Shown piece by piece: positions 24,268-43,658 of a DNA stretch of 44,031 nucleotides. The stretch covers positions 1 to 44,031 of the forward strand of contig QIGL01000041.1 of NCBI GenBank assembly GCA_003228915.1, in the 5' to 3' direction. The DNA is from Acidiferrobacteraceae bacterium (GTDB taxonomy: Bacteria; Pseudomonadota; Gammaproteobacteria; Acidiferrobacterales; SZUA-150). The translations under genes and the position numbers were made by a program. Under the pieces are notes generated by a model. That model searched no databases and had not been told where the DNA came from. It saw nothing but the letters and a program-made list of their open reading frames with translations. How positions within the stretch are numbered: the first letter of the stretch is position 1; each line of letters begins with the position of its first letter.

Positions 24268-24666
24268 ATGGAAGAACTGAAAAAAATCTTATGCGTGGAA
24301 GATGACCCTGACATCCTAACAGTGGTCACCACTGCACTGGTTACAAGTGGCCTGTCGGTACTGGCTTGTAATTCCGGCCAGGAGGCACTTGAAAAAGTTG
24401 TAACGTTTGGGCCAGATCTAATTTTACTGGATGTCCTGATGCCCGGCATGAATGGACCAGCCACGCTAAAGGCGCTACATGAGTTTCCTGAGATAAAAAA
24501 TATTCCGGTAATTTTTATGACCGCGCTGGCTCAGCCACGCGAAATTTCTCATCTAAAGAAAATGGGGGTACTGGATGTTATCGCAAAACCCTTCGATCCG
24601 ATGTCGCTGGCAGATCAGATTGGCGCCATGTGGAGCAAACGTGGTGGCCAGACATTGTCAAAATAA
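24268..24666 (+). CDS. single-domain response regulator (CheY-like)
   Basis: Receiver domain only, 132 aa. The acidic pair is EDDPD (11-15), the phospho-acceptor is Asp55 (LILLDVLMPG), Thr84 is in FMTAL and Lys106 in IAKPFDP. All residues for phosphorylation are present and there is no output domain. It lies 37 bases before the histidine kinase on the same strand and is a probable partner or phosphate sink for it. Confidence 0.93.
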   Translation: MEELKKILCVEDDPDILTVVTTALVTSGLSVLACNSGQEALEKVVTFGPDLILLDVLMPGMNGPATLKALHEFPEIKNIPVIFMTALAQPREISHLKKMGVLDVIAKPFDPMSLADQIGAMWSKRGGQTLSK

Positions 24667-24703
24667 CCACAGTTGACTGGAAACTCATTTTAAATACTCA
24701 GTC

Positions 24704-27103
24704 ATGATCTCGACAGCAAACTTTTATCATTCTCTCAAATATTTTATTAGTCGATACCACAGGCTCCTGAAGATTTCCAGCCTGGGGATTGCAAAAAAAA
24801 TCACTCTATTATCAATTTTGTTTGTGGTGGTCACTGCGAGCGTGGCCGTAGTAATCATTTACAACACCACCAATACTGAATTAATAAAGTATGCACTCAG
24901 GAACTTATCCTACGAGGTGGCTAACAAAGGCGTAGATTTTTCGGATAAGATCACCCGGTTACAAAAAGAGGTGCGTTTCCTTATAGGAACAGCGCCCATC
25001 CAGGGCATGATACAGGTGCACAAGACCAGTAGAAAAAGTCCCACGGGAAAATCCGCTGACCAACAATGGCGTCAACGTCTGGAACTTATTTTCTTATCCC
25101 GCTTGCAAGCCAATCTTAACTATCTCCAAATCCGTTATATCGATGTATTGGGAAAAGAACTTGTCCGAGTAGAACGAAAACAGGGGGAAATATATGTCGT
25201 CCCTACTTCAGGCTTGCAGAATAAATCAGGCCGACCCTATGTAAAAAAAATTATTAAATTACAGAAAGGAGCGGTCTATTTATCAGATATTAATCTCAAT
25301 CGTGAACACGGTCGTATTGTAGAACCTCATGTCGTGGTTTTGCGTGTTGCCACGCCAGTGGTTGACAACAATGACACTGTGATTGGATTTGTAATTATTA
25401 ACGTAGATTTCGGCAAGGAACTTGAACGTATTAAACAACAGTATGCCGGGTATGCAAGATCTCTATATATAGCTGATAGTAAAGGTAGTTACCTGTTGCA
25501 CCCTGTCCCTAATAAGATTTTTAGTAGCGATCTTGGCAGTGGCCACCTTATACAGAAAGAATTTCCCCGTGTTTCGGCACTCTATTCTTCTCACAACAAA
25601 GAGTTAAGTTTAACAGTGTTACCTCAAGGCGCTAACAGTATGGCTACAGCGTTTACTAAAATATTCTACGGGCCAACGAAGCTTGATCAATTCATCGTAA
25701 TCGGACTTGCAGAGCCATATAGCGATATTGTTTTGGCCTGGGGTGCCATGCTGGAAAAGAGCATCATCTGGTCATTGATTTTAATTTTGTTCAGCGGGTT
25801 GTTTGCCTTCAGGTTTTCCGCACTGCTCGTTAAACCATTGGAACAGATTACTCGAAGTGTAAGTGGTTATATGCATGGGGATTTGTCTGGTTCTTTGCCT
25901 GTTTCCCGAAAAGATGAAATTGGCAACCTTGCAAAAGCATTCAGAAATTTAATGAATCGAGTCACAATAAATCAGGTTGAATTATCTGAGTTGAACCTGA
26001 ATCTGGAGAACCTGGTAGAAGAACGTACCAGCAGACTAAAGGAAGCCGAAACCTATCAACGGGCAATTCTGGAAACGGTGGCAGATGCTATAATCACAAT
26101 TGACTCAAATAGTTTTATTCGCACTTTCAATCAAGCTGCCGAGAAAATTTTTGGCTACAAAGCCGCGGAGCTGATCGGACAGAATGTTTCGATTCTATTG
26201 CCAAAACCGGAACAAAAGAAACACGAGGAATATGTTGCAAACTCAAATCTCCAACGGTCCCGTATCATAAATGAAACCCGTGACCTGAAGGGCCGCCATA
26301 AAGACGGCACCATGATTCCATTAGAACTGACAGTGTCACGAATGCAGATGTCGGATGGTCAGTACGGATTTGTGGGTGTTTTGCGTGATATTACCGAGCG
26401 CAAGCGTATCGAGAAACTGAAAAACGAGTTTGTGTCGACCGTAAGCCACGAGCTGAGAACTCCTCTTACCTCCATACACGGAGCACTGCGTTTGCTTGTC
26501 AGTGGTAAACTGGGCGAGCTACCTGAAGAAGCTAAAAACATGTTAGAGATCGCGAATAATAATAGCGAGCGATTGATGCTGTTGATTAACGATATTCTGG
26601 ACATAGAGAAGATCGAATCTCAGCAAATGGTATATAACTTACAGGAGATGGAGGTTATGTCATTCCTGGAAAAGGCTGTAAATGATAATGTTGGTTACAG
26701 TAAGGAACATGGCATTGATTTCAGGATTGTGCAGAGACTTGATGATATCAGGGTATCTGTTGACCCTGATCGACTCATGCAGGTCTTCAGCAACTTATTG
26801 TCTAATGCTGCCAATTATTCACCAAAAGACAGGATAGTTGAGATTGGCCTGACTCGACATAACGGTATGGTGCGTATTTCGGTTACTAACTTCGGGCCTG
26901 AAATTCCAAAGGATTTCCAGCCCAAGCTGTTTGACAAGTTTACCCAGGCAAACAGTGAGGAGGTACGCCGGAAAGGTGGTACCGGTCTGGGACTTTCTAT
27001 TAGCAAGGCACTGGTAGAAGAAATGGGAGGTCGTATCAGCTTCGTTAGCAAGAAAGGAAGCGGAACGACTTTTTATATTGATTTACCAGAAATAACAGGG
27101 TGA
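24704..27103 (+). CDS. sensor histidine kinase (Cache-like sensor, HAMP, PAS, HisKA, HATPase)
   Basis: Membrane sensor kinase of 799 aa. The first helix is at about 31-53 and the second at about 352-374. The roughly 300-residue periplasmic region between them looks like a double Cache domain (LQIRYIDVLGKELVRVER, VGFVIINVD-like strands, SLYIADSKGSYLLHP). A HAMP linker (about 375-428) and a PAS domain (about 450-565, ILETVADAIITIDSNSFIRTFNQAAEKIFGY) follow. The HisKA box is VSTVSHELRTPLTS with His582. The HATPase has NLLSNAANYSP and GGTGLGLSISK. The ligand is unknown. It probably works with the CheY-like protein and possibly with the convergent BldC-like regulator. Confidence 0.93.
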   Translation: MISTANFYHSLKYFISRYHRLLKISSLGIAKKITLLSILFVVVTASVAVVIIYNTTNTELIKYALRNLSYEVANKGVDFSDKITRLQKEVRFLIGTAPIQGMIQVHKTSRKSPTGKSADQQWRQRLELIFLSRLQANLNYLQIRYIDVLGKELVRVERKQGEIYVVPTSGLQNKSGRPYVKKIIKLQKGAVYLSDINLNREHGRIVEPHVVVLRVATPVVDNNDTVIGFVIINVDFGKELERIKQQYAGYARSLYIADSKGSYLLHPVPNKIFSSDLGSGHLIQKEFPRVSALYSSHNKELSLTVLPQGANSMATAFTKIFYGPTKLDQFIVIGLAEPYSDIVLAWGAMLEKSIIWSLILILFSGLFAFRFSALLVKPLEQITRSVSGYMHGDLSGSLPVSRKDEIGNLAKAFRNLMNRVTINQVELSELNLNLENLVEERTSRLKEAETYQRAILETVADAIITIDSNSFIRTFNQAAEKIFGYKAAELIGQNVSILLPKPEQKKHEEYVANSNLQRSRIINETRDLKGRHKDGTMIPLELTVSRMQMSDGQYGFVGVLRDITERKRIEKLKNEFVSTVSHELRTPLTSIHGALRLLVSGKLGELPEEAKNMLEIANNNSERLMLLINDILDIEKIESQQMVYNLQEMEVMSFLEKAVNDNVGYSKEHGIDFRIVQRLDDIRVSVDPDRLMQVFSNLLSNAANYSPKDRIVEIGLTRHNGMVRISVTNFGPEIPKDFQPKLFDKFTQANSEEVRRKGGTGLGLSISKALVEEMGGRISFVSKKGSGTTFYIDLPEITG

Positions 27104-27148
27104 GATGACTTTCCATCTTCAGGAAGATAGATACGCCCAACCTTATAT

Positions 27149-27766
27149 TTATGGCGTTATTTTCGGTATTTTAGGAGTGGAAGCTGCTCGCTCCCTTATG
27201 TGAGCCTCCAATTTTTCGAAAGGTATTGGCTTTCCGTATACCACCACACCATCCGGTAAGCCGCCGCGACTACTAATACTTTCAGGAGATAAGGCAGACA
27301 CAACAAAAATATCCATGTCCTGGTAGTCAGGGTCTTTTTTTAATGCCTTGATCATGTGAAAACCGTCCATGTTCGGCATGTTCAGGTCTACGATCAGAAT
27401 GTCCGGGCGCTGCTGGCCAATACGAATAAGCGCTTCGTAACCATCTTTTGCCAATGTAAGCTGCAAGGGGACATCCCATGTAGATATGGTAATTTGATAG
27501 AGCTTTCTTATGTCGGGCTCATCTTCTGCGACCAATACCCGAAGCACTTCTTTTTCTTCATTGCTTTCTTTTTCTCCCAGTTGTTCCACGAACGCTTTGA
27601 GGACACTGGCCGAAATCCGGCGGTGCCCCCCCGGGGTTTTACGTGCCGAAATTACACCTGCATCTGCCCATAGTTGTATTGTGCGTGGCGTCACTCCAAT
27701 GATGCGCGCAGCCTCTACAGTTGTGTACATTGTTTCAACCCCCTCTTCTAAAGACTTGGCAGTCAT
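27149..27766 (-). CDS. response regulator with N-terminal BldC/MerR-like DNA-binding domain
   Basis: The 205-aa protein has an inverted architecture: DNA-binding domain first, receiver second. Residues 14-62 form a MerR/BldC/excisionase-type winged helix (YTTVEAARIIGVTPRTIQLWADAGVIS, then the GGHRR wing motif at 46-50). The receiver (about 75-195) has EDEPD, phospho-acceptor Asp127 (LIVDLNMP) and Lys179 (YGKPIP). An ATG at residue 13 (27730) has a GAGGGGG ribosome-binding site 8 bases upstream and may be the true start; the longer start at 27766 also has GAGG. It converges on the histidine kinase gene. Direct repeats upstream may be its own operator. Confidence 0.88.
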   Translation of the reverse strand: MTAKSLEEGVETMYTTVEAARIIGVTPRTIQLWADAGVISARKTPGGHRRISASVLKAFVEQLGEKESNEEKEVLRVLVAEDEPDIRKLYQITISTWDVPLQLTLAKDGYEALIRIGQQRPDILIVDLNMPNMDGFHMIKALKKDPDYQDMDIFVVSALSPESISSRGGLPDGVVVYGKPIPFEKLEAHIRERAASTPKIPKITP

Positions 27767-30202: not shown

Positions 30203-30550
30203 ACCTATACAAAAGAGTAATGTAGCAATTTTTCAACCATGAGCTAGAGTTTGAACAGTAACTCTTTGAATCTAATAATGAAATATCAAAGTAAACTACA
30301 GAGTTATGGAGTTAAATATCACAACAGGGAATGTTTTTTAATCGGCTACTCGCTGAGGCTTGCCAGTGTCTTCCTGTTCACTATCAATCTGATCAAACGA
30401 AACATCACCACTGGCAGTTATTTTATTAATAAAACTTCTGCTATCGCCACAATCTTTAACTCCACTAACAAATCACACGAACGAGCGGATCCTGTTCACC
30501 CGCCGCTAGATTCCCTTGCAATAAAAATTTACCACAGGATTTTTCACGGA

Positions 30551-33274
30551 ATGAAAAATATAACTAAAAAACAAAAAAGCCTGTCAAGTTACCCGGTTAC
30601 CCACGCCAGGAAACCTGGACAATTCCGGAAACCAGTCGTTTCTCTGCTCCTGGCAACTGGTTTCTGGTTATTTACTACTACCAGTTTTGCCGCCCAAATA
30701 TGCAATACCACCGTTGTGCCCATCCCCGACCTTTCAAGCGGTACCCCGGGCACTGCATCAACCAGCCTGACCTACTCGGTGGGTGATGTCAGCAGCGTCA
30801 TTTACGATGTTGACGTTGATGTTGGTATCACCCACACCTATGTCGGCGACCTGATTGCCGATGTGGTATCACCGGCCGCTTCATCAGTCGAGCTTTTTAA
30901 TCGACCGGGTTACACGGGTACCGGATTCGGTTGTAGCCAGGATAACCTTTCTGTGCTTTTCACAGATGGTTCCGGCAATGGCGTAATTGAAAATGTTTGT
31001 AATCCTTCGGCAGGTCCACCGCCTCCTTACGCCATCAATGGAATTTACGATCCTTCCAGTGTGCTGTCTTTTCTTAACGGCCAACAACCCACAGGTGTAT
31101 GGAATTTAAACGTCAGTGACAACGCCGGCCAGGATACAGGTGATATTACTAATTTTTGCGTCACGGTCACCCACGCCGCTGTTGTTTTCGATAAATGGGT
31201 AAGTAATAACGCCACCTGCTCCGATCAAATCGATGTTTTGAATGCGGCCGTGGGCAGCAACGTTTACTACTGTTACACGGTTGACAATGTCGGTACCGAG
31301 CAGTTTGTTATCAATGCCGGTGCAGCCACTGATGATCAATTGGGTGTTCTCACCGGGCTGGAAGGAACCTATGCGCCAGGTGCTACCGTCACCTCTGTCA
31401 TGGGGCCTTATGTGGCCGGTGGTGCCCAGGTGCCCGGCGGAACAACAGTCAATATTGCCAACATCACGGTCAGAGGTGTTGCCGGAAATTTTGATGCGAC
31501 TCAAACACTGGCCACAAACGAAACTGCGACAGTTAATGTTTTATCCAATCTTGCAACCTCAACCAAAACGGTTGTTGATCAAAATGGTGTTGATCCTGCG
31601 AGAGGTGATGTATTGCGCTATACCATCACGCTCAATGAAACCTCTGGCTTAATCGCCACGGGTGTCAGTGTTACCGATGACATCCCGGTCAACGTCAATA
31701 GCTTTACGATCATCAGTACACCAGGCGGGTCTACGGATTCATCTACCGGTGCCGGTACTGGTGCCAATGGCAATGGTTTTGTTAACGTTACCAATATCAC
31801 TGTGCCGGCCAATGGCAGTGTGACCATTGTGTTCGATGTCACAATTGATGCCACCGCTGCCAATGGCGCGTCCATTAGTAACAGCGCAACCATAACAAAT
31901 CCATCAGGTACTGGTGCAACACCCAGTGCCCCGACACTCATAGTTGTGGTGCCTGGCCCTGCTACAGGCAACAAAACACTGTACTTCTACAGCAACCTGA
32001 ATTTGTCACGGACACCCCCTGTGGCACCCCAGGCTTTGGTTGATATTAACGAGGTGACATCCACCAACTGGACTCAGACGCCGTTAACCCAGGGAGACAT
32101 CATTATCACGCGCGGGGCTGGCACCATTCCCGTATCCCTGTGGCTCCAGGCTACCGGTAATTTATTCTTTATTGCCCGCAATATCACTGTCACCTTAAGT
32201 GTAGTCGGAGCGACAACAATCACTCCCATCGGTTCTGTCAATCGTGTCATTACCCTGGGGGGAACGCCCCAGGAAGAGTTGTTTAGTGTCCCGATCACTA
32301 ACCCGGCAACTGGCGACATTACGATGCTGAGCGGTTCTCAGATTATTGTTACGGTGACCAATAATTCCACAGGTTTTGGTTCGCGGAGAATAGGGGTTAA
32401 TCCTATCGGAGCAACCAGCAACTCACGTGTCGATTTCGACACATCAACAGTGATCAATGTTGATAGTGTCTTGTTCTATGATGCAGCTTATCCAGGCGGC
32501 ACCAGCGTTACCCAGGTAAATGGCGGTAGTGCCGTTTATGTTCGAGCAGTGGTCAGTGATCCCTTTGGCAGTTTTGATATCACCTCGGCCAATATTGATC
32601 TCATTGATTCGGCAACCACCACTGTTGTATCCGGTGCCGCCATGACCCAGGTTGCGGACTCGGGCACCCTGACCAAAATCTACGAATATACCTATGTAGT
32701 CCCGGGAACGGGTCCGGTCGGTATATGGAATGCTCGTGTCACTGCCAATGAGGGCACCGAGGGAACAGTCACTCATACTTTACTGAACACCTTCACCGTG
32801 TTTCTGCCGCCGGATATTGTTATTGCCAAAACAGTCATAACCGAATTCGACCCCATAAATAACACCACTAATCCCAAAGCCATCCCCGGTGCCTGGAAAT
32901 TGTATTCCATTACAACAACCAACCAGGGTTTCGGGGTTGTTGATAACAATTCAATACTGATTACTGATCCAATCCCAACCAACACAGAATTGTTCGTTGG
33001 TGATTTGTCCGGCGGCGGATCGCCGTTGGTTTTTATTGATGGTGCAACCAGTAGTGCCTTGAGTTTTACTTTTGGCGGCCTGGGTAACGGCGCTGATGAT
33101 GTGGGCTTCTCCAATGATGGTGGTGGTACCTGGAATTACACCCCGGTTCCTGATGCCAATGGTTACGACGGCAATGTCACCAATATCCGGATAAATCCAA
33201 AAGGTACCTTTGCTGCCTCGGATGGCGTCAATAACCCTTCATTTGAATTTCGTTTTCGGGTGCAGGTGCAGTGA
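30551..33274 (+). CDS. secreted P-domain / DUF11 repeat protein
   Basis: Exported protein of 907 aa with the start chosen here. A long basic n-region and hydrophobic core end at TTTSFAA (signal peptide about 1-48). About residues 50-207 form a proprotein-convertase P-like jelly-roll (ICNTTVVPIPD, IYDVDVDVGITHTYVGDLIADVVSP, TGVWNLNVSDNAGQDTGDITNFCVTVTH). DUF11-type modules follow at about 333-470 (DVLRYTITLNETSG ... VTDDIPVNV) and 755-907 (IPGAWKLYSITTTNQG ... ITDPIPTNTEL), with Ig-like segments between. The frame is open upstream to a TTG at 30251. I prefer 30551 because the signal peptide follows it and AGGA lies 11 bases upstream. The stop overlaps the next gene. No protease domain or sorting tail is seen. 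Confidence 0.82.
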   Translation: MKNITKKQKSLSSYPVTHARKPGQFRKPVVSLLLATGFWLFTTTSFAAQICNTTVVPIPDLSSGTPGTASTSLTYSVGDVSSVIYDVDVDVGITHTYVGDLIADVVSPAASSVELFNRPGYTGTGFGCSQDNLSVLFTDGSGNGVIENVCNPSAGPPPPYAINGIYDPSSVLSFLNGQQPTGVWNLNVSDNAGQDTGDITNFCVTVTHAAVVFDKWVSNNATCSDQIDVLNAAVGSNVYYCYTVDNVGTEQFVINAGAATDDQLGVLTGLEGTYAPGATVTSVMGPYVAGGAQVPGGTTVNIANITVRGVAGNFDATQTLATNETATVNVLSNLATSTKTVVDQNGVDPARGDVLRYTITLNETSGLIATGVSVTDDIPVNVNSFTIISTPGGSTDSSTGAGTGANGNGFVNVTNITVPANGSVTIVFDVTIDATAANGASISNSATITNPSGTGATPSAPTLIVVVPGPATGNKTLYFYSNLNLSRTPPVAPQALVDINEVTSTNWTQTPLTQGDIIITRGAGTIPVSLWLQATGNLFFIARNITVTLSVVGATTITPIGSVNRVITLGGTPQEELFSVPITNPATGDITMLSGSQIIVTVTNNSTGFGSRRIGVNPIGATSNSRVDFDTSTVINVDSVLFYDAAYPGGTSVTQVNGGSAVYVRAVVSDPFGSFDITSANIDLIDSATTTVVSGAAMTQVADSGTLTKIYEYTYVVPGTGPVGIWNARVTANEGTEGTVTHTLLNTFTVFLPPDIVIAKTVITEFDPINNTTNPKAIPGAWKLYSITTTNQGFGVVDNNSILITDPIPTNTELFVGDLSGGGSPLVFIDGATSSALSFTFGGLGNGADDVGFSNDGGGTWNYTPVPDANGYDGNVTNIRINPKGTFAASDGVNNPSFEFRFRVQVQ

Positions 33275-34278
33275 TGGCCATGAAACGATTTTTATTAAAC
33301 GTATTTTTTCTTGCCGGCTTATTGTTGCCCGCCGCTTCCTGGGCCGTGGGCACCGGCGCCAATACGGTCATTAATAACACGGCCAATATCACTTATGACG
33401 TCGGGACTGTAACTGGTTTAACGGCCAGCGCCTCTGCAACGTTCAGGGTAGATGAAATTATTGCTGCCGCCCATACCTGGCAGGATGCCGGCAATATTAT
33501 TGTGCTGTCACCTGACAGTAACCAGGTATTGAGTTTTTTACTGACCAATGTGGGTAACGGTGTTGAGACCTTTTCATTAAGCGTAAACAACGCGATCGCC
33601 GGCGATAATTTTGATCCCCTCAATGCCCGCATTTACCTGGACAATGGTAACGGAATTTTCGATGGCATACTGGTAGAAACACTTTATGTGCCCGGGGTAA
33701 ATGACCCGGTACTGGATGCCAATGGCACCGACGCCATTGTTTTATTTGTGCTCAACGATATCCCGGCCGCGTTTTTAGCAACCAACACCGGCATTAGCCG
33801 AATCATTGCCTCGTCCACCACACCGGGTGCTGCCGGCAGTCCCGTGGGTACCGTGTTGGCAGGCCAGGGTGATGGCGGTTTGATTGATGCCGTCGTCGGA
33901 ACCACTACCGCTGATGTGAATGCAAATGGTACTTACGAAGTCCAGGCCAACCCGGTTGGCCTGGTCAAAACTGCTGATGTCATTAACGATGGCAGTGCTT
34001 GTACAACGGGTTGCTCACCTATTCCTGGCGCAACCATACGCTACAGCATCCAGGTGAATGTGATAGGCCTTGGCATTGTCGAGAGCCTGACTATTACCGA
34101 TGCCATCCCTGTCAATACAACTTACGTAGCTGGCACCATCACCCTTGATGCCATAACGATGACCGATATTGTCGATGCCGATGCCGGTGATTTTACTGCC
34201 AATACCATCACGATCAACCTGGGTAATGTCAACGCACCGGCAACTCGAACCATTACCTTCGACGTAACAATTAATTAA
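33274..34278 (+). CDS. secreted DUF11 domain protein, paralogue A
   Basis: Exported protein of about 334 aa. The start overlaps the stop of the previous gene (TGATG); GTG at 33271 and ATG at 33280 are alternatives. The signal peptide ends at ASWA. The mature N-terminus (VGTGANTVINNTANITYDVGT) is shared in pattern with paralogue B at 35243. The middle is a beta-rich domain, and the C-terminal 110 residues are a DUF11-type module (IPGATIRYSIQVNVIG ... ITDAIPVNTTYVAGTITLD ... RTITFDVTIN). There is no membrane anchor or sorting signal. It is probably co-translated with the P-domain protein. Confidence 0.82.
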   Translation: MAMKRFLLNVFFLAGLLLPAASWAVGTGANTVINNTANITYDVGTVTGLTASASATFRVDEIIAAAHTWQDAGNIIVLSPDSNQVLSFLLTNVGNGVETFSLSVNNAIAGDNFDPLNARIYLDNGNGIFDGILVETLYVPGVNDPVLDANGTDAIVLFVLNDIPAAFLATNTGISRIIASSTTPGAAGSPVGTVLAGQGDGGLIDAVVGTTTADVNANGTYEVQANPVGLVKTADVINDGSACTTGCSPIPGATIRYSIQVNVIGLGIVESLTITDAIPVNTTYVAGTITLDAITMTDIVDADAGDFTANTITINLGNVNAPATRTITFDVTIN

Positions 34279-34318
34279 GGAAAACAGAGAAATGAAATTA
34301 CTAAAAATGGAGATCAAA

Positions 34319-34825
34319 ATGAAAACTAAAAACATAAAAACTGCTGTTATTACCGGCTTTATCGCAATCTTGACACTCGCTACACCCGTCCAGGTGCAAG
34401 CGGTAAATGGTCATATCGAAATACGAAATGAGGTCAGAAAAGTTGAAATTTTCCTGAATAAAAAAGGGGTCAGGCAACAACGAGAAGTGGAGGCAGTAAA
34501 AGTTACCCCGGGGGACGAATTACTTTACACAATATATTTCAAGAATACGAGTAAAAAAGCGGCCTCCAATATTGTGATCAATAACCCGGTCCCGAAAAAC
34601 ATGATTTATAAAAATGGATCGGCGTTTGGTTCTGGCACTGATATTACTTTTTCGGTTGATGGCGGTAAAACTTTCGCCAAATCTGGAAAATTAAAAGTGA
34701 AATCAAAAAGCGGAACACTGCAACCCGCCACTGCAAAAGATTACACAGATATTCGCTGGGTTTTTAAACCAAAATTAAATCCTGGCGATCAGGGCACCGT
34801 TCAGTTCAGAGCAAACTTAAAATGA
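34319..34825 (+). CDS. secreted single-domain DUF11 protein
   Basis: Small exported protein of about 168 aa. The ATG at 34319 has GGAG 6 bases upstream and directly begins a signal peptide (KTKNIKTAVITGFIAILTLA ... VQA); an ATG at 34292 with AAGGA 11 bases upstream is an alternative. The mature part is Lys-rich and carries one DUF11-type module (VTPGDELLYTIYFKNTSKKAASNIVINNPVPKNMIY) ending TVQFRANLK. It may act as a linking or capping subunit of the cluster's larger proteins (inference). Confidence 0.78.
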   Translation: MKTKNIKTAVITGFIAILTLATPVQVQAVNGHIEIRNEVRKVEIFLNKKGVRQQREVEAVKVTPGDELLYTIYFKNTSKKAASNIVINNPVPKNMIYKNGSAFGSGTDITFSVDGGKTFAKSGKLKVKSKSGTLQPATAKDYTDIRWVFKPKLNPGDQGTVQFRANLK

Positions 34826-34989
34826 AAATAATTTTACATCGTCGGGGTTTTACCAAACACCTGGGTTGTTTTCTGATATTCCCGGTGTTCCCGGTATTTT
34901 CGACGTTTTATTTTTTTAGAAATGAATTTAAAACAATTTATTGGTCAAAAAGTTTTAAGAATTTTGTGCGGCATGCACGAGGAGCAATT

Positions 34990-35217
34990 ATGAGTATTTT
35001 CACAAAACAAATTTTCCACTTAAAAACCCGTGAGGGTCCACCTGAACCAACAGGGCCGCCTCTTGGTACAGGCCCTCCCGGTTGCGGTCCCCCTTCCGGG
35101 GCCGGGCCACCCGGGAAAAATGAATCAGCCACAACGGTGTCGCGACGGACCGAGGTGGTTAAACAAAAGATTTTTATTAAAAAATTAATTTGGATTATTA
35201 ATTTTCAACAAATGTAA
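34990..35217 (+). CDS. small Gly-Pro-Pro-rich protein
   Basis: The ATG at 34990 has GAGGAG 5-6 bases upstream, a strong ribosome-binding site, and gives 75 residues. The N-terminus is MSIFTKQIFHLKTRE. Then come about 27 residues in which GPP recurs roughly every six positions, then a basic tail. There is no signal peptide. The same frame is open further upstream to 34822, but that part looks non-coding. The Gly-Pro-Pro repeat recalls collagen-like or cell-surface linker sequence but is too short to classify. It may be spurious; the ribosome-binding site and position inside the cluster favour a real gene. Confidence 0.4.
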   Translation: MSIFTKQIFHLKTREGPPEPTGPPLGTGPPGCGPPSGAGPPGKNESATTVSRRTEVVKQKIFIKKLIWIINFQQM

Positions 35218-35242: not shown

Positions 35243-36367
35243 ATGAAATCATTAACTCTAAGCAAGATGTTGGGTTGGTTGCCAGTGATTGCAATACTCT
35301 GGGGGGTGTCGTTCTCGGCACACGCCCTGGGTACTGCGTCCAGTACATCCATCACCAACAGGGCCACCATCAACTACGATGTTGGCACCACTGCCCAAAC
35401 ACCGATTGAGAGTTCTCCTGGAGGGAACACGACGCCCGGTGTGGGTAACGGTACCGATACTGCATTTATAGTGGATAACCGTGTTGATCTGGTACTTGCC
35501 GAAGTTGGTGCAACCTATACTACGGGTGCGCCAGGTGAGGCGGGACTGGTCACAACATTTTCCCTGACCAATGAAGGTAACACGGTGCAGGACTACTCTT
35601 TTGCGGCAGTCAACAACGTGGGTGGTACGTTATTTACCATTCTCGATGATTCAAACGTCACCATCACCGGTATATTTGTCGAAGACGGTACTACGCCTGG
35701 TTATCAGCTAGGACAAGATACTGCAACGTTCGTTGATGAGCTGGCGGCCGATGGTACGCAGACGGTTTATGTTATTGCAACCATCCCGGTGGCCTCGGTG
35801 GATAGCAACTACGCCATTATTGATTTGACGGCAACCACACGAGACGGTGGTGCAGGTGGTCAGGGCGCAGTCACCACGGCAACGGCCGGTGCTGATACCG
35901 CAGGCGTTGACGTAGTGCTTGCCGACGGCTTTGATGATGGTGGTGTTGGTGGCCTCGACGGTGATACCAGTGACGGCGTTAACGATGGTGCCTTTACAGC
36001 CCAGGATGCCTACCTGGTCGCCTCGGCCCTGATAACGGTCACCAAAACCTCGGCAGTTATTAGCGATCCAATCAACCTGGCTGTTAATCCAAAACGGATA
36101 CCAGGTGCGATTGTTCGTTATACCGTGGTGGTTACCAATACAGGCGGCACAGCGGCAGCCAATGTCACGTTGGTTGATGTTATACCTGCCAATACCACCT
36201 ACGTGCCCGCTACCATCACCCTGGGTGGCGCAGCCCAAACCGATGTCGCAGATGCAGATGCCAGTGACTTTAATGCCACCAATGCAAATGCTGTGACGTC
36301 TGTGATAGGCGCACTGGTTGCAACCAGTGGCACCCAGACTGTCACCTTTGACGTGACGGTTAACTAG
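35243..36367 (+). CDS. secreted DUF11 domain protein, paralogue B
   Basis: Exported protein of 374 aa. The signal peptide ends at AHA, and the mature start LGTASSTSITNRATINYDVGTT parallels paralogue A at 33274. The middle is an acidic, Gly/Asp-rich beta region (DGFDDGGVGGLDGDTSDGVNDG) that may bind calcium (inference). The C-terminal DUF11-type module is IPGAIVRYTVVVTNTGGTAAANVTLVDVIPANTTYV ... VTFDVTVN. GGGAGG at 35220-35225 lies 17 bases before the ATG, so the ribosome-binding site is not ideal. It is separated from the giant gene by a 172-base spacer with two hairpins. Confidence 0.82.
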   Translation: MKSLTLSKMLGWLPVIAILWGVSFSAHALGTASSTSITNRATINYDVGTTAQTPIESSPGGNTTPGVGNGTDTAFIVDNRVDLVLAEVGATYTTGAPGEAGLVTTFSLTNEGNTVQDYSFAAVNNVGGTLFTILDDSNVTITGIFVEDGTTPGYQLGQDTATFVDELAADGTQTVYVIATIPVASVDSNYAIIDLTATTRDGGAGGQGAVTTATAGADTAGVDVVLADGFDDGGVGGLDGDTSDGVNDGAFTAQDAYLVASALITVTKTSAVISDPINLAVNPKRIPGAIVRYTVVVTNTGGTAAANVTLVDVIPANTTYVPATITLGGAAQTDVADADASDFNATNANAVTSVIGALVATSGTQTVTFDVTVN

Positions 36368-36412
36368 TAGTCGTACCATGGCATTGTCGACTATTAAACT
36401 GGCCATGGGCGT

Positions 36413-36436
36413 CCTTGTCGGATTTTTCCGACAAGG
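36413..36436 (+). other. Hairpin 1 in the leader of the giant gene
   Basis: A perfect 9-bp stem CCTTGTCGG/CCGACAAGG with a 6-base loop (ATTTTT). No T-run follows. It lies 45 bases after the paralogue B stop. Confidence 0.7.
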
Positions 36437-36488
36437 GTCTGCTCGTGTCCGGGTTAATAGCGAATGTCCTGGTAATTTTATTTTACGT

Positions 36489-36527
36489 GACTGGTTGGTT
36501 GTCATTAGCCAACCAGTCCGTCTTTTT
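36489..36527 (+). terminator. Hairpin 2 with T-run, possible attenuator before the giant gene
   Basis: A perfect 10-bp stem GACTGGTTGG/CCAACCAGTC (36489-36498 with 36509-36518) and a 10-base loop is followed by CGTCTTTTT. It has the shape of a weak intrinsic terminator and ends just ahead of the preferred ATG at 36540, so it may reduce read-through into the giant gene or mask its start. Confidence 0.5.
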
Positions 36528-36539
36528 CCGGGTTTTGTT

Positions 36540-39500
36540 ATGAGAGCCCGGAAACAGACGGCTGTATTCCTGTTAGTGATATTGGCAGTCCTGCAGGTAA
36601 GTGCCGCCTGGGCAGTACCACCCGGCACGGTACTATCTAATAATGCTAATTCTACCTATGGCATCGGTGGTGTACCCGGTTTTACCAGTGGTTCTAATAC
36701 GGTAAATATCACCACCACAATAAATCTTACGCCATCGAACATTAGCTTTTTTCAATATTCACCTTCCGGTGCTGGTGCCAACATAATGGCCTCTCCCAGC
36801 TTTTGTGCCAACGGCGCAGCGACCGGACCTTTTATTCCCCTGGGTAATCCTACCTACCCGGGCCTGGGAATTATTGATGTAACCGTGCCCGTGAACCTGC
36901 TGGCAGCAACACGATTTAACCAGGGTGAACCAATCTTTGTTCGCACTGATGATGCCAATGCCAATATCAATCCGGGGATCCGGGATATATTACGCGTTAC
37001 CGTCACCGTCACCGAGACCGGTGATGCCGAGGTCATTGAAATGACCGAAACCGCAAATAACTCCGGTATTTTTGTTGGTTTCATTCCTTCATCAGGCGTC
37101 GCAGTGGCCCAGTACGATTGTCAGCTAAGTGTCCAGGAAGATAATAATCTTACTGTTACCTATACCGACGAATATGATAATACCGACACCTCAAATGCCC
37201 AGGCCCTGGTTGATCCCTTCGGCATGGTGTTTGATTCAACTAGTGGTAATTTCATTAACGGTGCCACGGTCACCATAATCGATGCCGGTACCGGCTTGCC
37301 AGCCACGGTTTTTGGCGATGATGGTGTCAGTACTTACCCGGCCACCATCACCAGTGGCGGCAGTGCAACCGATAGCGGCGGTACAGTTTATAACTTCCCC
37401 CCTGGCGGTTACCGATTTCCATTAATGTCGCCCGGCACTTATCGAATAACCATTGTACCGCCGACGGGTTACTCGGCACCGTCGGCTGTTACGATCCCGG
37501 TTTTGCAAACATTACCAGGCGCGCCCTTTGCGCTTGATATTAATGCTTCATTTGGCCTGGATTTTATTTTAAATGCCGGCCCGCCACTTAATGTTGATAT
37601 TCCGGCAGACCCCAGCGGCGCATCAACGGGTAATTTGTTTCTCAGTAAAACGGCCTCCAAGAATAGCGCATCTATAGGTGAGTTCGTACGGTATACCCTG
37701 ACCCTGGACAATACAGATTTATTGGTAGCCTCCAGCAATACTGTAATCACAGATGTATTACCGCTGGGTTTTCGCTACCAGGAATCATCAGCGCACTTGA
37801 ATGGCAATGTCATGACCGGGCCATCAATCAGCGCCGATGGACGAACACTAAAATTTAATATTGGCACCCTCGCGGCTGATAGCCGTGCCACCGTCACCTA
37901 CGTGACATCGGTTATCGCCAATGTCGAAAAAGGAAAAGCAGTAAACACTGCCCAGGCAACTAACGTCACTACAATTTTATCAAACCTGGCAACGTCTACT
38001 GTCACGATTAAAGAAGATTTGTTTACCAGTCGCAGCCATGTATTTGGTCGTGTAACCCTGGGTAATTGCAAAATCGATCCGCCCAGCTCCGGGTTTGTCG
38101 ATATGCGCTTACGCAGCGAACTCTTTTCCGGTCGCGTCCGTTATGAATTAACGCTAACCGGTACCACCGTACCGGTAACAAACATGCGTGTCACTGCATC
38201 ATTACCACCCGAGTTGAGCTACATCGTGAACAGCGCGCGCCTGGAAGATGGTATGAAATTAGTACCAATCCAGAAAAACAATACACTGGAATTTTATATC
38301 GGTGATCGCGGCAGTAACTGGAGCCGGACAATTGTTTTTGAAGCCCGGACTCAATCAGACAATGCCGGTACAGCAACAACCGTCGTATACGCAAGGTTTA
38401 ATTCACCTTCAGAAAAAGATTTAGAAATTAAAGCCAGTAATAGCCTGACCAATCGCATGTTTAAACCGGAAGACAAGACCATTATCGCCTTGCCTAATTT
38501 TGATAAATCCAGGACCCAGCTCAACCTGGCCGATCGCACCGAGTTGAATTCATTAATTAAACAACTGCAAGGCAAGATCATCAAACGGGTGAAAATTTCA
38601 GGTCATTCAGATTCAATGATCCTCTCTAATGGCGCACAAAGTGAATACCTGGATAACTATTCATTATCTCTGGAACGCGCAAAATCAGTCGGGACTTACC
38701 TGGACCAGTATTTGAAGATTGATAAAAATAATATTTCGCTACGGGGTTATGGCCCGGATCTACCGGTTGCCGGTAATGAAACCGAAGTCGGACGTCGCGC
38801 CAATAGACGGGTAGAAGTTGAAATCACGACCCTGCAACATAAACCACGATTGAAGTGGGAAATGTTAACAAACGATAGTGAGTTACAACGCACCCGCATT
38901 GAAGGCCCGCTGCAGAAAAAAGGCGACCTGACAATGGGCGAAGACTTGCCAGGCGTTAAAGGTGTGCGCCTGGTCACTGAAAACGGAATTTATGTCACCA
39001 CCGATGACCAGGGCATGTATCACCTGGAAGGTCTGAAACCAGGTACCCACGTATTACAAATCGATACCGCCACCCTGCCCAGCAACCTCGAAGCGGTACT
39101 GTGTGAAGAAAACACACGTTTTGCCGGCAGTGGTTATTCCCAGTTTATCGACTTACAGGGCGGTACCTTGTGGCGGGCAGATTTTTATCTGCGCGAGAAA
39201 GCACCGCTGCAAGATAACGTAAACCTGCGCATGCGCACCCAGCTCAATGAACAGGATGCCGATATTACAATCGACCTTGAAGGGACTCGTTTTATTTATA
39301 ACAAGCTACGATTGCTGGTCATGCTACCAAAAGAACTGGAATACATCCCGGGTAGCAGCCGCCACAACAACATGGCACTTGGTGAGCCCGAGATTACGGA
39401 CGGAGTGCTGGCTTACCGATTAGCGGGTACCGGTAAAGAAACATGGAAGCGTACATTAAAATTAAAAGTCAAAGCCATTGGTGTCCGTAAAGGTGAGATC

Positions 39501-42500
39501 AAAACCAGGGCACTCCTGATGTTTGAGACCCTCGATGGCAAACGCCACAAAACACCCGTGGCCACCAATTCTTTGGTTCATTCCGTGCCGGAAGATCGCA
39601 AGCAACAGTTTACCTTCAGGCCAAAATTTACCTCTGCCCGGGCAAAATTGCGGGTAAGCGACAAGAAATTGCTGAATAAGATTATCGGTCAATTCAAAGG
39701 CATACAGATTAATGCGATTAAAGTAATCGGCCATGCCGATAATCAACCACTGTCCGGGGCAACCAAAAAACGCTTCAAGGATAATATGACCTTGTCTGGT
39801 ATCCGCGCCGCCAGTGTTGCTGATTACATTGGCGAGGTATTACGACTGGATAAATCTCAAATAGAAATCATCGCCATGGGCGCAACCAAACCACTGGTCA
39901 GTAATGATACCGCTGAAGGACGCGCCATCAATCGAAGGGTTGAGTTATTTGTTGATGCAGTCCAGAAAAACAAGGAAGGCGCCTGGAACCCGGCCGGAGA
40001 AAAAAATAAAATTTATTACGTAAAATCAAAATACAAAATCAATAACGGCAACCGTGAAAAAATCCAGGTCATTATCGATAACCTGAAAAAACAAAACCCT
40101 GGACGCATCCGGGTAGTTGGCCATAGCGACAGTAAAGGACTGATCAAGGCCTCTGGCAAAGATCATTTTGATACTAACTACGCCTTGTCCAGAGCACGCG
40201 CCGAAACAGTTGCCGAAATATTGCGCACAGAATTAAAACTGAAACCTGAACAGGTTGTGGTCGACATGAGAGGAGCTTCGCAACCGGTGGCCAGTAATAG
40301 CACAGAATCAGGACGCGACCTGAACCGGCGCGTGGAAATTTTTGTTGAGGCCGAAGAACAAGAACAAACACTGGGCACAAAACCTGACTGGAAACCCGTA
40401 CAAAGTGATTCTGGCCTCCAGTCTGTGAAGGTAAAAGTTAAACGTACTGTTGGGAAGTTTGCCTTGCCCCAGTTACCTGAAACTAAAAAAATTAAACTTT
40501 CCGAGTTCAATGCCAAATGGCTTGCAAACGAAAAACCGGGCTTTGAATGGATATTGCCCCTGGCCAATACAAACCCGGACATCCCGTCGATCAAGGTGGG
40601 CGTCAAGTATGATCCGGCTTACCAGTTGAAACTAACATTGAATGGACGCCCCGTCAGCGGCCTTAACCTGGATTCAGTCCTGAAACGAAAAGATGGAAAA
40701 GTTGCTGTTAATTTATGGGCAGGTGTGAATATTTTCAATGGTGACAATGTGCTCGAGGCAATTTTAACGGATAAATCCGGCAAGGTTGTCAGGCAGATCA
40801 AACACAAAGTTCATTATTCAGGCCCGGCCTCAAAGGTCGAGTATGTTGAAAAATATTCCAGCCTGGCGGCCAACGGTCGTGACCCTGTGGTTATCGCGGT
40901 TCGTTTACGTGACAACGAAGGTTACCCGGTTCGTGCGGGTACAGTTGGCGAATTTATCTTACTACCGCCTTACCAGTTAAAAACAAAAATTGATGATTTA
41001 CGTGTAAATGTATTAACTGGCAAACGAAAAAGAAACAATATTTTTAAAGTATTGGCCGATGGTATTGCCCTGATCCAGATTGAACCCACCACCGATGCCA
41101 ACCAGGTACAGCTGAGATTTCGTTTTAATGATCGTCACGTGGAAAAAATGGGTGTCTGGTTACAGGCCGAGCAACGCGATTGGGTATTGGCAGGTTTGGC
41201 AGAAGGCACTGCGGCCTACAAAACCATTGAAGGTAACATGGAGGCTCTGGATGCCCTCGATGAAAAAGATGGTCTTAACACCGATGGTCGTTTGGCCTTT
41301 TACGCCAAGGGCAGCATTAAAGGCAACTGGTTATTAACCGCTGCCTTTGATTCCAAAAAGAAGGAACGTCCGGCCGATGCTGTTCTGCACGGACTCATTG
41401 ATCCAAATAAATACTACACCCTTTATGGTGATAAAACTGAACGCCGTGCCGATGCGCCCAGTCGTAAAAAGCTTTACATCAAGCTGGAACGACGCCAGTT
41501 TTATGCGTTATTCGGTGATTACAATACCGGGCTAACCGTAACCGAGCTATCGCGATATAACCGTAGCCTGACCGGTCTTAAGTCAGAATTCGGTAACAAG
41601 TATGTTGATTTAAATGTATTCGCTGCCGAGACTGAACAGGCCTTTGTCAAGGATGAAATCCAGGGTGATGGCACCTCAGGACTTTATAATTTGTCACAAC
41701 AAAATATTGTTTTTAACAGCGACAAAATAACCATTGAAACCCGTGACCGGTTTCAAAGCCAGGTGGTCTTAACTTCGCGAGTGTTAACCCGGTTTATTGA
41801 TTACACACTGGACCCGGTCAATGGCACCTTATATTTCAGGGAACCAATTTTTTCCCAGGATGCCAACTTTAATCCAATTTATATTGTTGCCGACTATGAA
41901 GTTGAAAGTAATGGTGACAAGACCATCACGGCTGGTGGTCGTGGTGCGGTTAAATTCCTCGATGAACGTATTGAAGTAGGTGCCACCGCAATCAGTGAAG
42001 GCACAAAAGGTAATGAAGGCCAATTGGCAGGCGCCGATGTCCGGGTTGATATAACACCTGACACCAGGTTAAAAGCTGAAATAGCTACCAGCAAAAAAGA
42101 ATCTGGTACGACTTCCCGTGATGGCGATGCCTGGCTGGCAGAATTGACACATCGAACTAAAAAAGTGGATGGCAAGGTATACATCCGGGAACAGCAAGCA
42201 GGGTTTGGCCTGGGACAACAAAAAGGCAGCGAAACCGGTACCCGCAAGATCGGTCTCGATGTAAATTATCGTCCACACGATAAAATTATCATTCATGGTG
42301 AGGCACGTCGTGATGAAAACCTGACAACGACAGGTATTCGGGATGTCGCCGCAGCCGACGTTACTTTCAGGGAGAAGGCCTACAGCTTGTCCGGTGGTTT
42401 TCGCAGAGCCGAAGATACCACGGCCCTCGGCGAAAAATTCAGCTCTAACTTGCTGACACTTGGTGCATCCCGCGCCTTCATGGGTAACAAGCTTAACCTG

Positions 42501-43658
42501 CGGGCCAACACTGAGCTGGCACTGGATAAAAATAATAATGCCAATCCCGATTATCCGTCAAAATTAATTTTAGGTGGTGACTATCAGATACTGCAAAAAA
42601 CCCGGCTTTTTGTTCAGGAGGAATTTACTTTTGGAGAGTATCAAGATACACAAGCTACCCGGGTTGGCGTAGAAACCCGACCATTTGAACGCACCAGGAT
42701 ACGAACCGACATGACCAATGAAGTCAGTGAGTATGGGCCAAGGACCTATGCCGGGCTTGGTTTGAACCAGGGCTTTAAATTATCGGATCAATGGATGCTG
42801 GATTTTGGCTTTGACCAGCGTAAGACTGTACGCGACCCAGGCAACACACAATTTAATGTCAACGTACCCCCCGCTTCCGGTACGGTGAATAATGATTTCT
42901 ACGCAGTATCAGCGGGCGCGACTTACCGCCAGAAACTCTGGTCTGCCACTGGTCGCCTGGAGTTTCGAGATGCCGAGCAGGATAAAAAATCAAATTTATT
43001 ATTTGGATTCTATCGTGATTACAGTCCTGGTATTGGTTTTGCCACCAAGATCAATATATTCAGAACTGAACAGGTTCTCATTGAAGACGAATCAATCAGT
43101 GGTGAAGCAGAGTTCTCACTGGCCTATCGTCCGATCAAGAGTCGTTGGGCCGTACTTGATAAACTACGATTGTTCTATAGTGGCTTATCAAATACGAGCG
43201 GAACATCCGAGACTGAAAAAATTGTTAACAACCTGAATACAAACTGGCTCATCAACCGCCAGAACCAATTGGCATTTCACTGGGGCATCAAACAGGTTAT
43301 CGACAGTTATGTAGAGGGAGACTACAAGGGCATTACCCAGGCCGCTAGCGCCGAGTACCGTTACGACCTCACATCGAAATGGGACCTGGGCCTGCGCGTC
43401 GGTGCATTATATACGGATAATTATAGACAACATACCGAAACCTGGGGCGTATCGGCGGGTTACAATGTTGCCCGTAACATGTGGTTAACGGTAGGTTACA
43501 ACTTCAATGGTTTCGAAGATAAAGATTTCTCTGGCGCCGGTTACAGCACCAAGGGCACTTATGTTAAATTCCGTTTCAGCTTTGATCAGCTAACCGCACG
43601 TTCAGTCATGGCGTTCTGGGAAACAGATGAAAATATTAACCCAGTGGCTAATAAATAA
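36540..43658 (+). CDS. giant outer-membrane protein: DUF11, three OmpA-type domains and C-terminal beta-barrel
   Basis: About 2,372 aa from the ATG at 36540, which directly begins a signal peptide (MRARKQTAVFLLVILAVLQ ... AWA). The frame is open 54 codons further up, but that part contains the two hairpins. Order of parts: an N-terminal Ig-like region; a DUF11-type module at about 365-490 (SIGEFVRYTLTLDNTD); OmpA-type domain 1 at about 650-763 (GHSDS, LSLERAKSV, NRRVEVEI); an SdrD-B-like segment at about 805-836; OmpA-type domains 2 at about 1027-1141 (GHADN) and 3 at about 1157-1270 (GHSDS, NRRVEIFVE); an Ig-like linker; and from about 1545 to the end a long series of amphipathic strands typical of an outer-membrane barrel. 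All three OmpA-type domains keep the Asp and Arg used to bind diaminopimelate. It is the last gene of the cluster. Confidence 0.85.
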   Translation: MRARKQTAVFLLVILAVLQVSAAWAVPPGTVLSNNANSTYGIGGVPGFTSGSNTVNITTTINLTPSNISFFQYSPSGAGANIMASPSFCANGAATGPFIPLGNPTYPGLGIIDVTVPVNLLAATRFNQGEPIFVRTDDANANINPGIRDILRVTVTVTETGDAEVIEMTETANNSGIFVGFIPSSGVAVAQYDCQLSVQEDNNLTVTYTDEYDNTDTSNAQALVDPFGMVFDSTSGNFINGATVTIIDAGTGLPATVFGDDGVSTYPATITSGGSATDSGGTVYNFPPGGYRFPLMSPGTYRITIVPPTGYSAPSAVTIPVLQTLPGAPFALDINASFGLDFILNAGPPLNVDIPADPSGASTGNLFLSKTASKNSASIGEFVRYTLTLDNTDLLVASSNTVITDVLPLGFRYQESSAHLNGNVMTGPSISADGRTLKFNIGTLAADSRATVTYVTSVIANVEKGKAVNTAQATNVTTILSNLATSTVTIKEDLFTSRSHVFGRVTLGNCKIDPPSSGFVDMRLRSELFSGRVRYELTLTGTTVPVTNMRVTASLPPELSYIVNSARLEDGMKLVPIQKNNTLEFYIGDRGSNWSRTIVFEARTQSDNAGTATTVVYARFNSPSEKDLEIKASNSLTNRMFKPEDKTIIALPNFDKSRTQLNLADRTELNSLIKQLQGKIIKRVKISGHSDSMILSNGAQSEYLDNYSLSLERAKSVGTYLDQYLKIDKNNISLRGYGPDLPVAGNETEVGRRANRRVEVEITTLQHKPRLKWEMLTNDSELQRTRIEGPLQKKGDLTMGEDLPGVKGVRLVTENGIYVTTDDQGMYHLEGLKPGTHVLQIDTATLPSNLEAVLCEENTRFAGSGYSQFIDLQGGTLWRADFYLREKAPLQDNVNLRMRTQLNEQDADITIDLEGTRFIYNKLRLLVMLPKELEYIPGSSRHNNMALGEPEITDGVLAYRLAGTGKETWKRTLKLKVKAIGVRKGEIKTRALLMFETLDGKRHKTPVATNSLVHSVPEDRKQQFTFRPKFTSARAKLRVSDKKLLNKIIGQFKGIQINAIKVIGHADNQPLSGATKKRFKDNMTLSGIRAASVADYIGEVLRLDKSQIEIIAMGATKPLVSNDTAEGRAINRRVELFVDAVQKNKEGAWNPAGEKNKIYYVKSKYKINNGNREKIQVIIDNLKKQNPGRIRVVGHSDSKGLIKASGKDHFDTNYALSRARAETVAEILRTELKLKPEQVVVDMRGASQPVASNSTESGRDLNRRVEIFVEAEEQEQTLGTKPDWKPVQSDSGLQSVKVKVKRTVGKFALPQLPETKKIKLSEFNAKWLANEKPGFEWILPLANTNPDIPSIKVGVKYDPAYQLKLTLNGRPVSGLNLDSVLKRKDGKVAVNLWAGVNIFNGDNVLEAILTDKSGKVVRQIKHKVHYSGPASKVEYVEKYSSLAANGRDPVVIAVRLRDNEGYPVRAGTVGEFILLPPYQLKTKIDDLRVNVLTGKRKRNNIFKVLADGIALIQIEPTTDANQVQLRFRFNDRHVEKMGVWLQAEQRDWVLAGLAEGTAAYKTIEGNMEALDALDEKDGLNTDGRLAFYAKGSIKGNWLLTAAFDSKKKERPADAVLHGLIDPNKYYTLYGDKTERRADAPSRKKLYIKLERRQFYALFGDYNTGLTVTELSRYNRSLTGLKSEFGNKYVDLNVFAAETEQAFVKDEIQGDGTSGLYNLSQQNIVFNSDKITIETRDRFQSQVVLTSRVLTRFIDYTLDPVNGTLYFREPIFSQDANFNPIYIVADYEVESNGDKTITAGGRGAVKFLDERIEVGATAISEGTKGNEGQLAGADVRVDITPDTRLKAEIATSKKESGTTSRDGDAWLAELTHRTKKVDGKVYIREQQAGFGLGQQKGSETGTRKIGLDVNYRPHDKIIIHGEARRDENLTTTGIRDVAAADVTFREKAYSLSGGFRRAEDTTALGEKFSSNLLTLGASRAFMGNKLNLRANTELALDKNNNANPDYPSKLILGGDYQILQKTRLFVQEEFTFGEYQDTQATRVGVETRPFERTRIRTDMTNEVSEYGPRTYAGLGLNQGFKLSDQWMLDFGFDQRKTVRDPGNTQFNVNVPPASGTVNNDFYAVSAGATYRQKLWSATGRLEFRDAEQDKKSNLLFGFYRDYSPGIGFATKINIFRTEQVLIEDESISGEAEFSLAYRPIKSRWAVLDKLRLFYSGLSNTSGTSETEKIVNNLNTNWLINRQNQLAFHWGIKQVIDSYVEGDYKGITQAASAEYRYDLTSKWDLGLRVGALYTDNYRQHTETWGVSAGYNVARNMWLTVGYNFNGFEDKDFSGAGYSTKGTYVKFRFSFDQLTARSVMAFWETDENINPVANK

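Follow-up and report, generated by a model that had tools for sequence, protein, structure and literature searches.

The locus examined here raises the question of why a single protein should carry three OmpA-type domains ahead of an outer-membrane barrel instead of behind it, and what the DUF11 modules interleaved with those domains are for. In this study, we addressed that question for a protein encoded by an Acidiferrobacteraceae bacterium on contig QIGL01000041.1, the window being the whole stretch of DNA that was analysed, 44,031 nucleotides in length. Our analyses indicate that this protein is probably the outer-membrane, peptidoglycan-bound anchor of a surface filament of DUF11 (CLIPPER) proteins that would be held together by donor strands and possibly locked by isopeptide bonds.

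The open reading frame of the barrel protein is longer than the probable gene, since the methionine that precedes a good signal peptide is Met55 at position 36540, which is also where the first-pass annotation had begun the gene. The features of the protein are as follows.

36378-43658, plus strand: barrel-protein open reading frame, 2426 aa, likely start 36540 (Met55)
36540..36614, plus strand: signal peptide, residues 55-79, MRARKQ...SAAWA, judged by eye from the sequence
36621..36671, plus strand: putative donor strand, strand-G-like, at the mature N-terminus, PGTVLSNNANSTYGIGG; weak in the window copy (2.8 bits) and stronger in homologues
37221..37511, plus strand: CarboxypepD_reg-like module (PF13620), under the curated cut-off
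37590..38030, plus strand: complete DUF11/CLIPPER domain (Pfam) with strand G and its Asn, residues 405-551, colinear with the C-terminal tail of giant DUF11 proteins
38127..38465, plus strand: second, diverged DUF11-like domain, residues 584-696 (our own HMM, E~1e-7)
38478..38834, plus strand: OmpA-type domain 1, residues 701-819, Asp and Arg kept (Pfam and motif check)
38940..39242, plus strand: SdrD_B/CarboxypepD-like module, residues 855-955, homologous to the end module of giant DUF11 proteins
39606..39962, plus strand: OmpA-type domain 2, residues 1077-1195, Asp and Arg kept (Pfam and motif check)
39999..40355, plus strand: OmpA-type domain 3, residues 1208-1326, Asp and Arg kept (Pfam and motif check)
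40545..41147, plus strand: Ig-like region between OmpA-type domain 3 and the barrel, residues ~1390-1590, a beta-sandwich by inspection
41175..43595, plus strand: outer-membrane beta-barrel predicted from sequence evidence, residues ~1600-2406
43554..43583, plus strand: C-terminal beta-signal GTYVKFRFSF, conserved in two alignments (A1 and A2)

The Pfam scan matched DUF11 at E=1.2e-9, CarboxypepD_reg at 5.7e-6 and SdrD_B at 1.8e-4, the latter two both under their curated cut-offs, and together with our own HMM it bears out the earlier description of OmpA domains interleaved with DUF11 and SdrD-B-like modules. The first part of the Ig-like region was the best-modelled segment in the AlphaFold2 run (blocks of pLDDT 50-80). 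Matches of the N-terminal region to Pizza proteins were set aside as likely compositional.

For the OmpA domains, PF00691 matches three stretches at E=1.8e-40 with 137.7 bits against a gathering cut-off of 27.2, and the GH[S/A]D motif and the Arg of LSxxRA are present in all three, as had been noted from the sequence. The Asp of GHxD and the Arg of LSxxRA in OmpA domains are the contacts to diaminopimelate. Among the OmpA domains of homologues the Asp is kept in 38 of 47 and the Arg in 44 of 47. The three window domains are assigned a putative peptidoglycan-binding role on these residues, and we would expect them to bind the wall. In all fused homologues the OmpA copies, of which there are none to three, are N-terminal of the barrel, and where a barrel protein has none, the upstream DUF11 protein often ends in an OmpA domain, or a gene downstream encodes one. 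Two such loci have, directly 3' of the OmpA-less barrel gene, a lipoprotein-like gene with two OmpA domains (L099, 15463-16452; L101, 15413-16327), an arrangement that suggests an anchor provided in trans. In another set of barrel genes (L067, L068 and L074-L077) the OmpA Asp is replaced by Asn (GHTN) and the donor Asn is also replaced in most, which suggests that tight wall binding and the covalent joint were lost in parallel. The first-pass annotation had presented the domain order as a paradox, and that was overstated: up to three N-terminal OmpA domains are normal in this barrel family, and SlpA is a precedent for a wall-binding domain ahead of a barrel (PMC9388160).

Several lines of evidence indicate that the C-terminal region looks like an outer-membrane barrel, as the first-pass annotation had supposed. 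The family-averaged hydrophobicity of the ~810 C-terminal residues has 23 alternating amphipathic strand peaks versus 8.4 +/- 2.5 in permutations, the chain ends in the aromatic beta-signal GTYVKFRFSF, and in many sister proteins the chain end falls exactly on that signal. In addition, profile comparison shows the region to be homologous (821 columns, prob. 100) to a sister family with members that match barrel families of Pfam, for example OMP_b-brl and BBP2. AlphaFold2 modelling of the barrel region from four sequences gave a pLDDT of 37.5, too low to use as fold evidence, so that we infer the barrel fold from the sequence. Searches of the PDB with profiles of the barrel families (A1 and A2) returned nothing meaningful, and no SprA or usher structure. 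The barrel family is without a Pfam entry, and the domain order of the window protein has parallels.

The barrel was found in 10 of 60 relatives, the window's own genome included, and in 45 of 299 genomes sampled from the phylum (about 15%), always at the C-terminus and with zero to three OmpA domains ahead of it. The nearest named relative is an uncultured Acidiferrobacteraceae MAG (91%), which was the sole match in a single-protein search of genome contigs. The architecture with three OmpA domains recurs in two other genomes at 91% and 51% identity, and therefore the arrangement is not a matter of chance. Plasmid records with the barrel include Acinetobacter, Vibrio, Sinorhizobium, several Rhodobacterales and cyanobacteria, and the homologues are annotated in databases as hypothetical protein, TonB-dependent receptor, OmpA family protein or DUF11 protein. 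One cyanobacterial homologue lies among large unannotated genes on a plasmid of Synechococcus sp. NIES-970 (L110), demonstrating that the barrel family reaches beyond Pseudomonadota.

At every barrel locus for which the upstream sequence extends to 2.5 kb or more, a DUF11 gene adjoins the barrel gene, the exception being a barrel-only fragment near a contig end that is without DUF11 (L052). The same adjacency was seen in named records from Acinetobacter, Sinorhizobium and Eleftheria, the neighbour in the last being annotated as SdrD B-like. Among the 60 relatives DUF11 occurs in 10 of 10 barrel genomes versus 6 of 50 others (Fisher 1e-7), and in one of those six (G018) the end of a contig seems to interrupt an operon of layout A. 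Two layouts were recognised. In layout B a single giant DUF11 array of about 1,500-4,200 aa lies directly 5' of a separate barrel protein gene, and in layout A, that of the window, several small DUF11 proteins are followed by a barrel protein fused to an adhesin C-terminal tail. The CpepD_reg-DUF11-SdrD_B stretch of the window protein can be aligned, in the same order of modules, with the tail at the very C-terminus of the giant DUF11 proteins, identifying the window protein as a fusion of that tail with its barrel partner; such a fusion is itself evidence that adhesin and barrel work together. Both layouts occur at separate loci of the same genome in three cases (L048/L055 in G004, L049/L056 in G002 and L060/L098 in G101), so that one cell carries paralogous systems. 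Positions 24268-27766, which lie upstream of the window's DUF11 operon, hold genes for a response regulator, a sensor histidine kinase and a MerR-HTH/receiver fusion, which are possible regulators of the operon.

Obligate adjacency to DUF11 genes, the size of the barrel and the separate barrel and adhesin genes of layout B together resemble two-partner secretion, and they raise the possibility, which we entertain only tentatively, that the barrel is chiefly a translocon for the export of the DUF11 proteins, of a two-partner-like or usher-like kind, and that anchoring is secondary. A weak resemblance to SprA, the T9SS translocon (TIGR04189, E=0.01-0.095), would fit with this, but the score in one member was 9.8 bits against a curated cut-off of 200, and the structural searches described above brought up neither SprA nor an usher. 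Kinship of the barrel to SprA was accordingly set aside as weak, not significant and far under the family cut-off. Export by the barrel is compatible with anchoring by the barrel protein and does not exclude it, and our confidence in the two overlaps.

The anchor reading that we prefer depends on the DUF11 proteins encoded ahead of the barrel protein, which are 1007, 335, 177 and 374 aa in length. Below, groove denotes a C-terminal DUF11 domain without its strand G, and donor an N-terminal segment that resembles that strand.

30251..33274 (likely start 30551), plus strand: operon gene 1, P-domain and DUF11, probable tip protein; without donor, ends ...FEFRFRVQVQ after strand F
33271..34278, plus strand: 335-aa subunit; donor VINNTANITY at the mature N-terminus, C-terminal DUF11 stops after strand F
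34292..34825, plus strand: 177-aa single-domain DUF11 protein; truncated groove, without donor
35243..36367, plus strand: 374-aa subunit; donor SITNRATINY, C-terminal DUF11 stops after strand F (...TVTFDVTVN stop)

The last domain of operon gene 1 was weakly detected. A 131-aa open reading frame between the 177- and 374-aa genes (34822-35217) lacks both a domain and a clear signal peptide, contains a Pro/Gly-rich stretch and is probably not a gene. Single-DUF11 proteins of ~155-215 aa, the class of the 177-aa protein, are conserved in most layout-A operons and have a groove and no donor; their catalytic Asp is replaced in 8 of 17, by Asn (7 of 17) or Ala, and they may be caps or chaperones. 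No Pfam match to a PapD-like chaperone or a FimD-like usher was found in the 27 window proteins scanned, the DUF11 genes and barrel protein included.

The location of these parts relative to the outer membrane bears on a second explanation, proposed in part by the first-pass annotation, in which the N-terminal domains would all lie in the periplasm, the OmpA domains would bind peptidoglycan, and the DUF11 proteins would polymerise or lie in the periplasm too, as a tether or spacer linking outer membrane to wall. Three intact OmpA domains, the usual periplasmic position of the two ends of a barrel, and the precedent of SlpA/OmpM (PMC9388160; PMC10628300) speak for it. However, members of the family with the same operon lack any OmpA domain, the first gene has a P-domain module that is unexpected in a spacer, and the same barrel family adjoins giants like a published fibrillar adhesin with a C-terminal OmpA anchor (PMC12617251). 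Since the N-terminal DUF11 part is homologous to the tail of an adhesin of that published type, the spacer is a rival that we consider unlikely and not the best reading. The annotation had further argued that, if the OmpA domains bind peptidoglycan, the N-terminal ~1,500 residues must all be periplasmic. The stretch with the OmpA domains should be, as they precede the barrel; for the stretch as a whole it is at most a possibility, the DUF11 part being homologous to the giant adhesin tail. Its suggestion of a link to the small DUF11 proteins has gained in strength, adjacency being universal where it could be tested and the N-terminus of the barrel protein being donor-strand-like.

The DUF11 domains of the small proteins end early, and this supports the anchor reading. 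A DUF11 HMM built solely from the giants has 174 positions, with the consensus ...TVTYTARVN (122) AGATAGGTLTNTATVTY..., and 75 of 106 DUF11 matches in small proteins end at positions 120-124 of the 174, mostly 0-2 residues before the stop codon. DUF11 matches in giants and barrel proteins mostly extend to about 140-165, and in the control set nine of nine DUF11 proteins unlinked to a barrel extend to 154-162. What the small proteins lack is strand G and, on it, the Asn of the isopeptide triad, which in 9IFR consists of Lys, Asp and Asn. The distribution of those residues follows the cut: the truncated domains have the Lys in 58 of 58 aligned, the Asp in 58 of 66 and the Asn in 0 of 66, the giants have them in 159, 174 and 164 of 180, respectively, and all three are present in the DUF11 domains of the barrel proteins. 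A low-confidence AlphaFold2 model of the 374-aa protein has a C-terminal domain of six strands (block pLDDT 76-83, poor elsewhere), the last of which is also the end of the chain, and leaves the N-terminal strand unplaced. Foldseek ranked CLIPPER 9ifr second (E 0.024, prob 1.00), and our DUF11 profile finds 9ifr at 1.4e-19.

The missing strand was found at the other end of the chains. A strand-G sub-HMM from the giants scored at least 5 bits in the N-terminal regions of 28 of 80 small proteins and 12 of 31 barrel proteins, versus 0 of 410 other open reading frames and 1 of 111 shuffles, and a donor detectable by regular expression is present in 19 of 30 barrel proteins against a background of 9 of 410. 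The window's own donor segments score low by themselves (2.5, 1.3 and 2.8 bits with the sub-HMM). In a splice test, each truncated end was joined to every N-terminal segment of its operon partners and all cuts were scored. The median gain was 17.1 bits for the subunits of 300-510 aa (p=4e-37) and 11.4 bits for barrel proteins (p=9e-26), and about 5 bits, the level of 444 control splices, for the tip-size and <=215-aa classes; the window barrel protein spliced to window grooves gains 7-12 bits. Neighbours joined in silico thus restore a complete DUF11 domain, and both halves of a donor-strand pair, an Ig domain without its last strand and an N-terminus carrying one, are present at the level of sequence.

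Donor and groove occur together in 35 of 42 proteins of 300-510 aa, as would be expected if the N-terminal strand completed the C-terminal domain of its own chain by circular permutation and no polymer were formed. Such closure in cis is improbable and was rejected, because it leaves the offset between donors and grooves along the operon unexplained: a groove is present in 28 of 28 genes directly 5' of the barrel gene and in 0 of 30 barrel proteins, which are donor-only, whereas 7 of 8 larger subunits are without donor and most tip-size and all <=215-aa proteins are groove-only, an asymmetry that makes sense solely in trans. Decay of a giant adhesin gene into pieces, which the resemblance of the small proteins concatenated in order to a giant DUF11 protein might evoke, is so strongly disfavoured that we reject it, most of the genes having their own signal peptide and start, the same cut site recurring in dozens of distant genomes, and Lys and Asp being retained.

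Under the anchor reading, the subunits would be DUF11 chains divided between strands F and G of the Ig fold, and the operon in effect a giant DUF11 adhesin cut at its F|G joints. The groove of one protein would be filled by the N-terminal strand-G-like segment of a neighbouring shaft subunit, as in donor-strand complementation. The first operon gene, with a groove and no donor, would supply the tip, the 335- and 374-aa proteins, with both, the shaft, and the barrel protein, with a donor and a complete internal DUF11 domain, the end of the chain at the cell. There the barrel would be embedded in the outer membrane, with the three OmpA domains tying the chain to peptidoglycan. The acceptor carries Lys and Asp and the donor Asn, and for this reason every joint may be covalent, in the manner of a natural split-domain tag/catcher. 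Covalent joints cannot be general, as the donor Asn is replaced in some homologues. Should the N-terminus lie outside and the OmpA domains inside, residues ~80-690 must cross the outer membrane, and this N-terminus or the subunits may do so through the barrel.

Potentially, these operons represent a widespread class of Gram-negative surface filament in which F|G-split DUF11/CLIPPER subunits are joined head-to-tail by donor-strand complementation, locked by inter-chain Lys-Asn isopeptide bonds without chaperone or usher, and end in an outer-membrane barrel protein that its OmpA domains bind to peptidoglycan, with the giant DUF11 adhesin as its single-chain form, a generalisation that we offer as a reasonable possibility and short of a firm conclusion. 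We found no description of a split-DUF11 operon system in the openly accessible literature. If the split-domain joint is real, it would be a new way to build surface fibres that needs no chaperone, usher or sortase, natural tag/catcher pairs would be encoded in every operon, and it would be explained why one barrel family is common to giant adhesins and small-DUF11 operons. DUF11 adhesins gain in this barrel a likely partner and anchor, and an odd single-protein architecture becomes a testable operon-wide system in the sampled phylum, with barrel homologues in cyanobacteria.

Comparison with known systems shows which elements are shared. The likeness to SprA/Sov is limited to a weak match over a short length of the barrel region, in a part that is conserved, and no other T9SS part was seen beside it. 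OmpA/OprF-type porins also combine an OmpA peptidoglycan-binding domain and a barrel in one chain, but their order, barrel first and OmpA last, was not found in the window or in any fused homologue, and the window barrel is unrelated, much larger and accompanied by three OmpA copies. The order of the window is that of SlpA (Deinococcus-Thermus) and OmpM (Negativicutes), in which a peptidoglycan-binding domain precedes a large outer-membrane barrel at the C-terminus; in the SlpA of Deinococcus this barrel is 30-stranded (PMC9388160). In those proteins, however, the N-terminal part is an SLH domain and a coiled coil, whereas the window protein has OmpA and Ig-like modules; the Pfam scan of the window proteins gave no SLH match, and the accessible descriptions of SlpA/OmpM mention no DUF11 partners. 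Chaperone-usher pili and archaeal threads share with our proposal an incomplete Ig-like domain filled by the N-terminal strand of another subunit, and the threads (Saci_0406) combine donor strands with apparent inter-subunit isopeptide bonds (PMC9715654). The subunit domain here is DUF11, with no PapD chaperone or FimD usher recognised, and the thread bond links the N-terminus to an Asn two subunits on, whereas the bond proposed for the window would join Lys and Asn within one split domain. The closest counterpart is B9T28_05395 of Acinetobacter silvestris, a fibrillar adhesin with a CLIPPER (DUF11) stalk and an OmpA-like anchor (PMC12617251, PDB 9IFR), for which the passages searched contain no reference to a barrel partner or inter-chain strand exchange. 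It is a single polypeptide with OmpA at its C-terminus, whereas the window adhesin is split into subunits and has its tail fused to the barrel. The two have in common the DUF11 stalk, the OmpA-like C-terminal part and the isopeptide Lys-Asp-Asn; the layout-B giants are of the same kind, and in the window the combination of DUF11 stalk and OmpA-like anchor is found at the level of the operon and in the fused tail.
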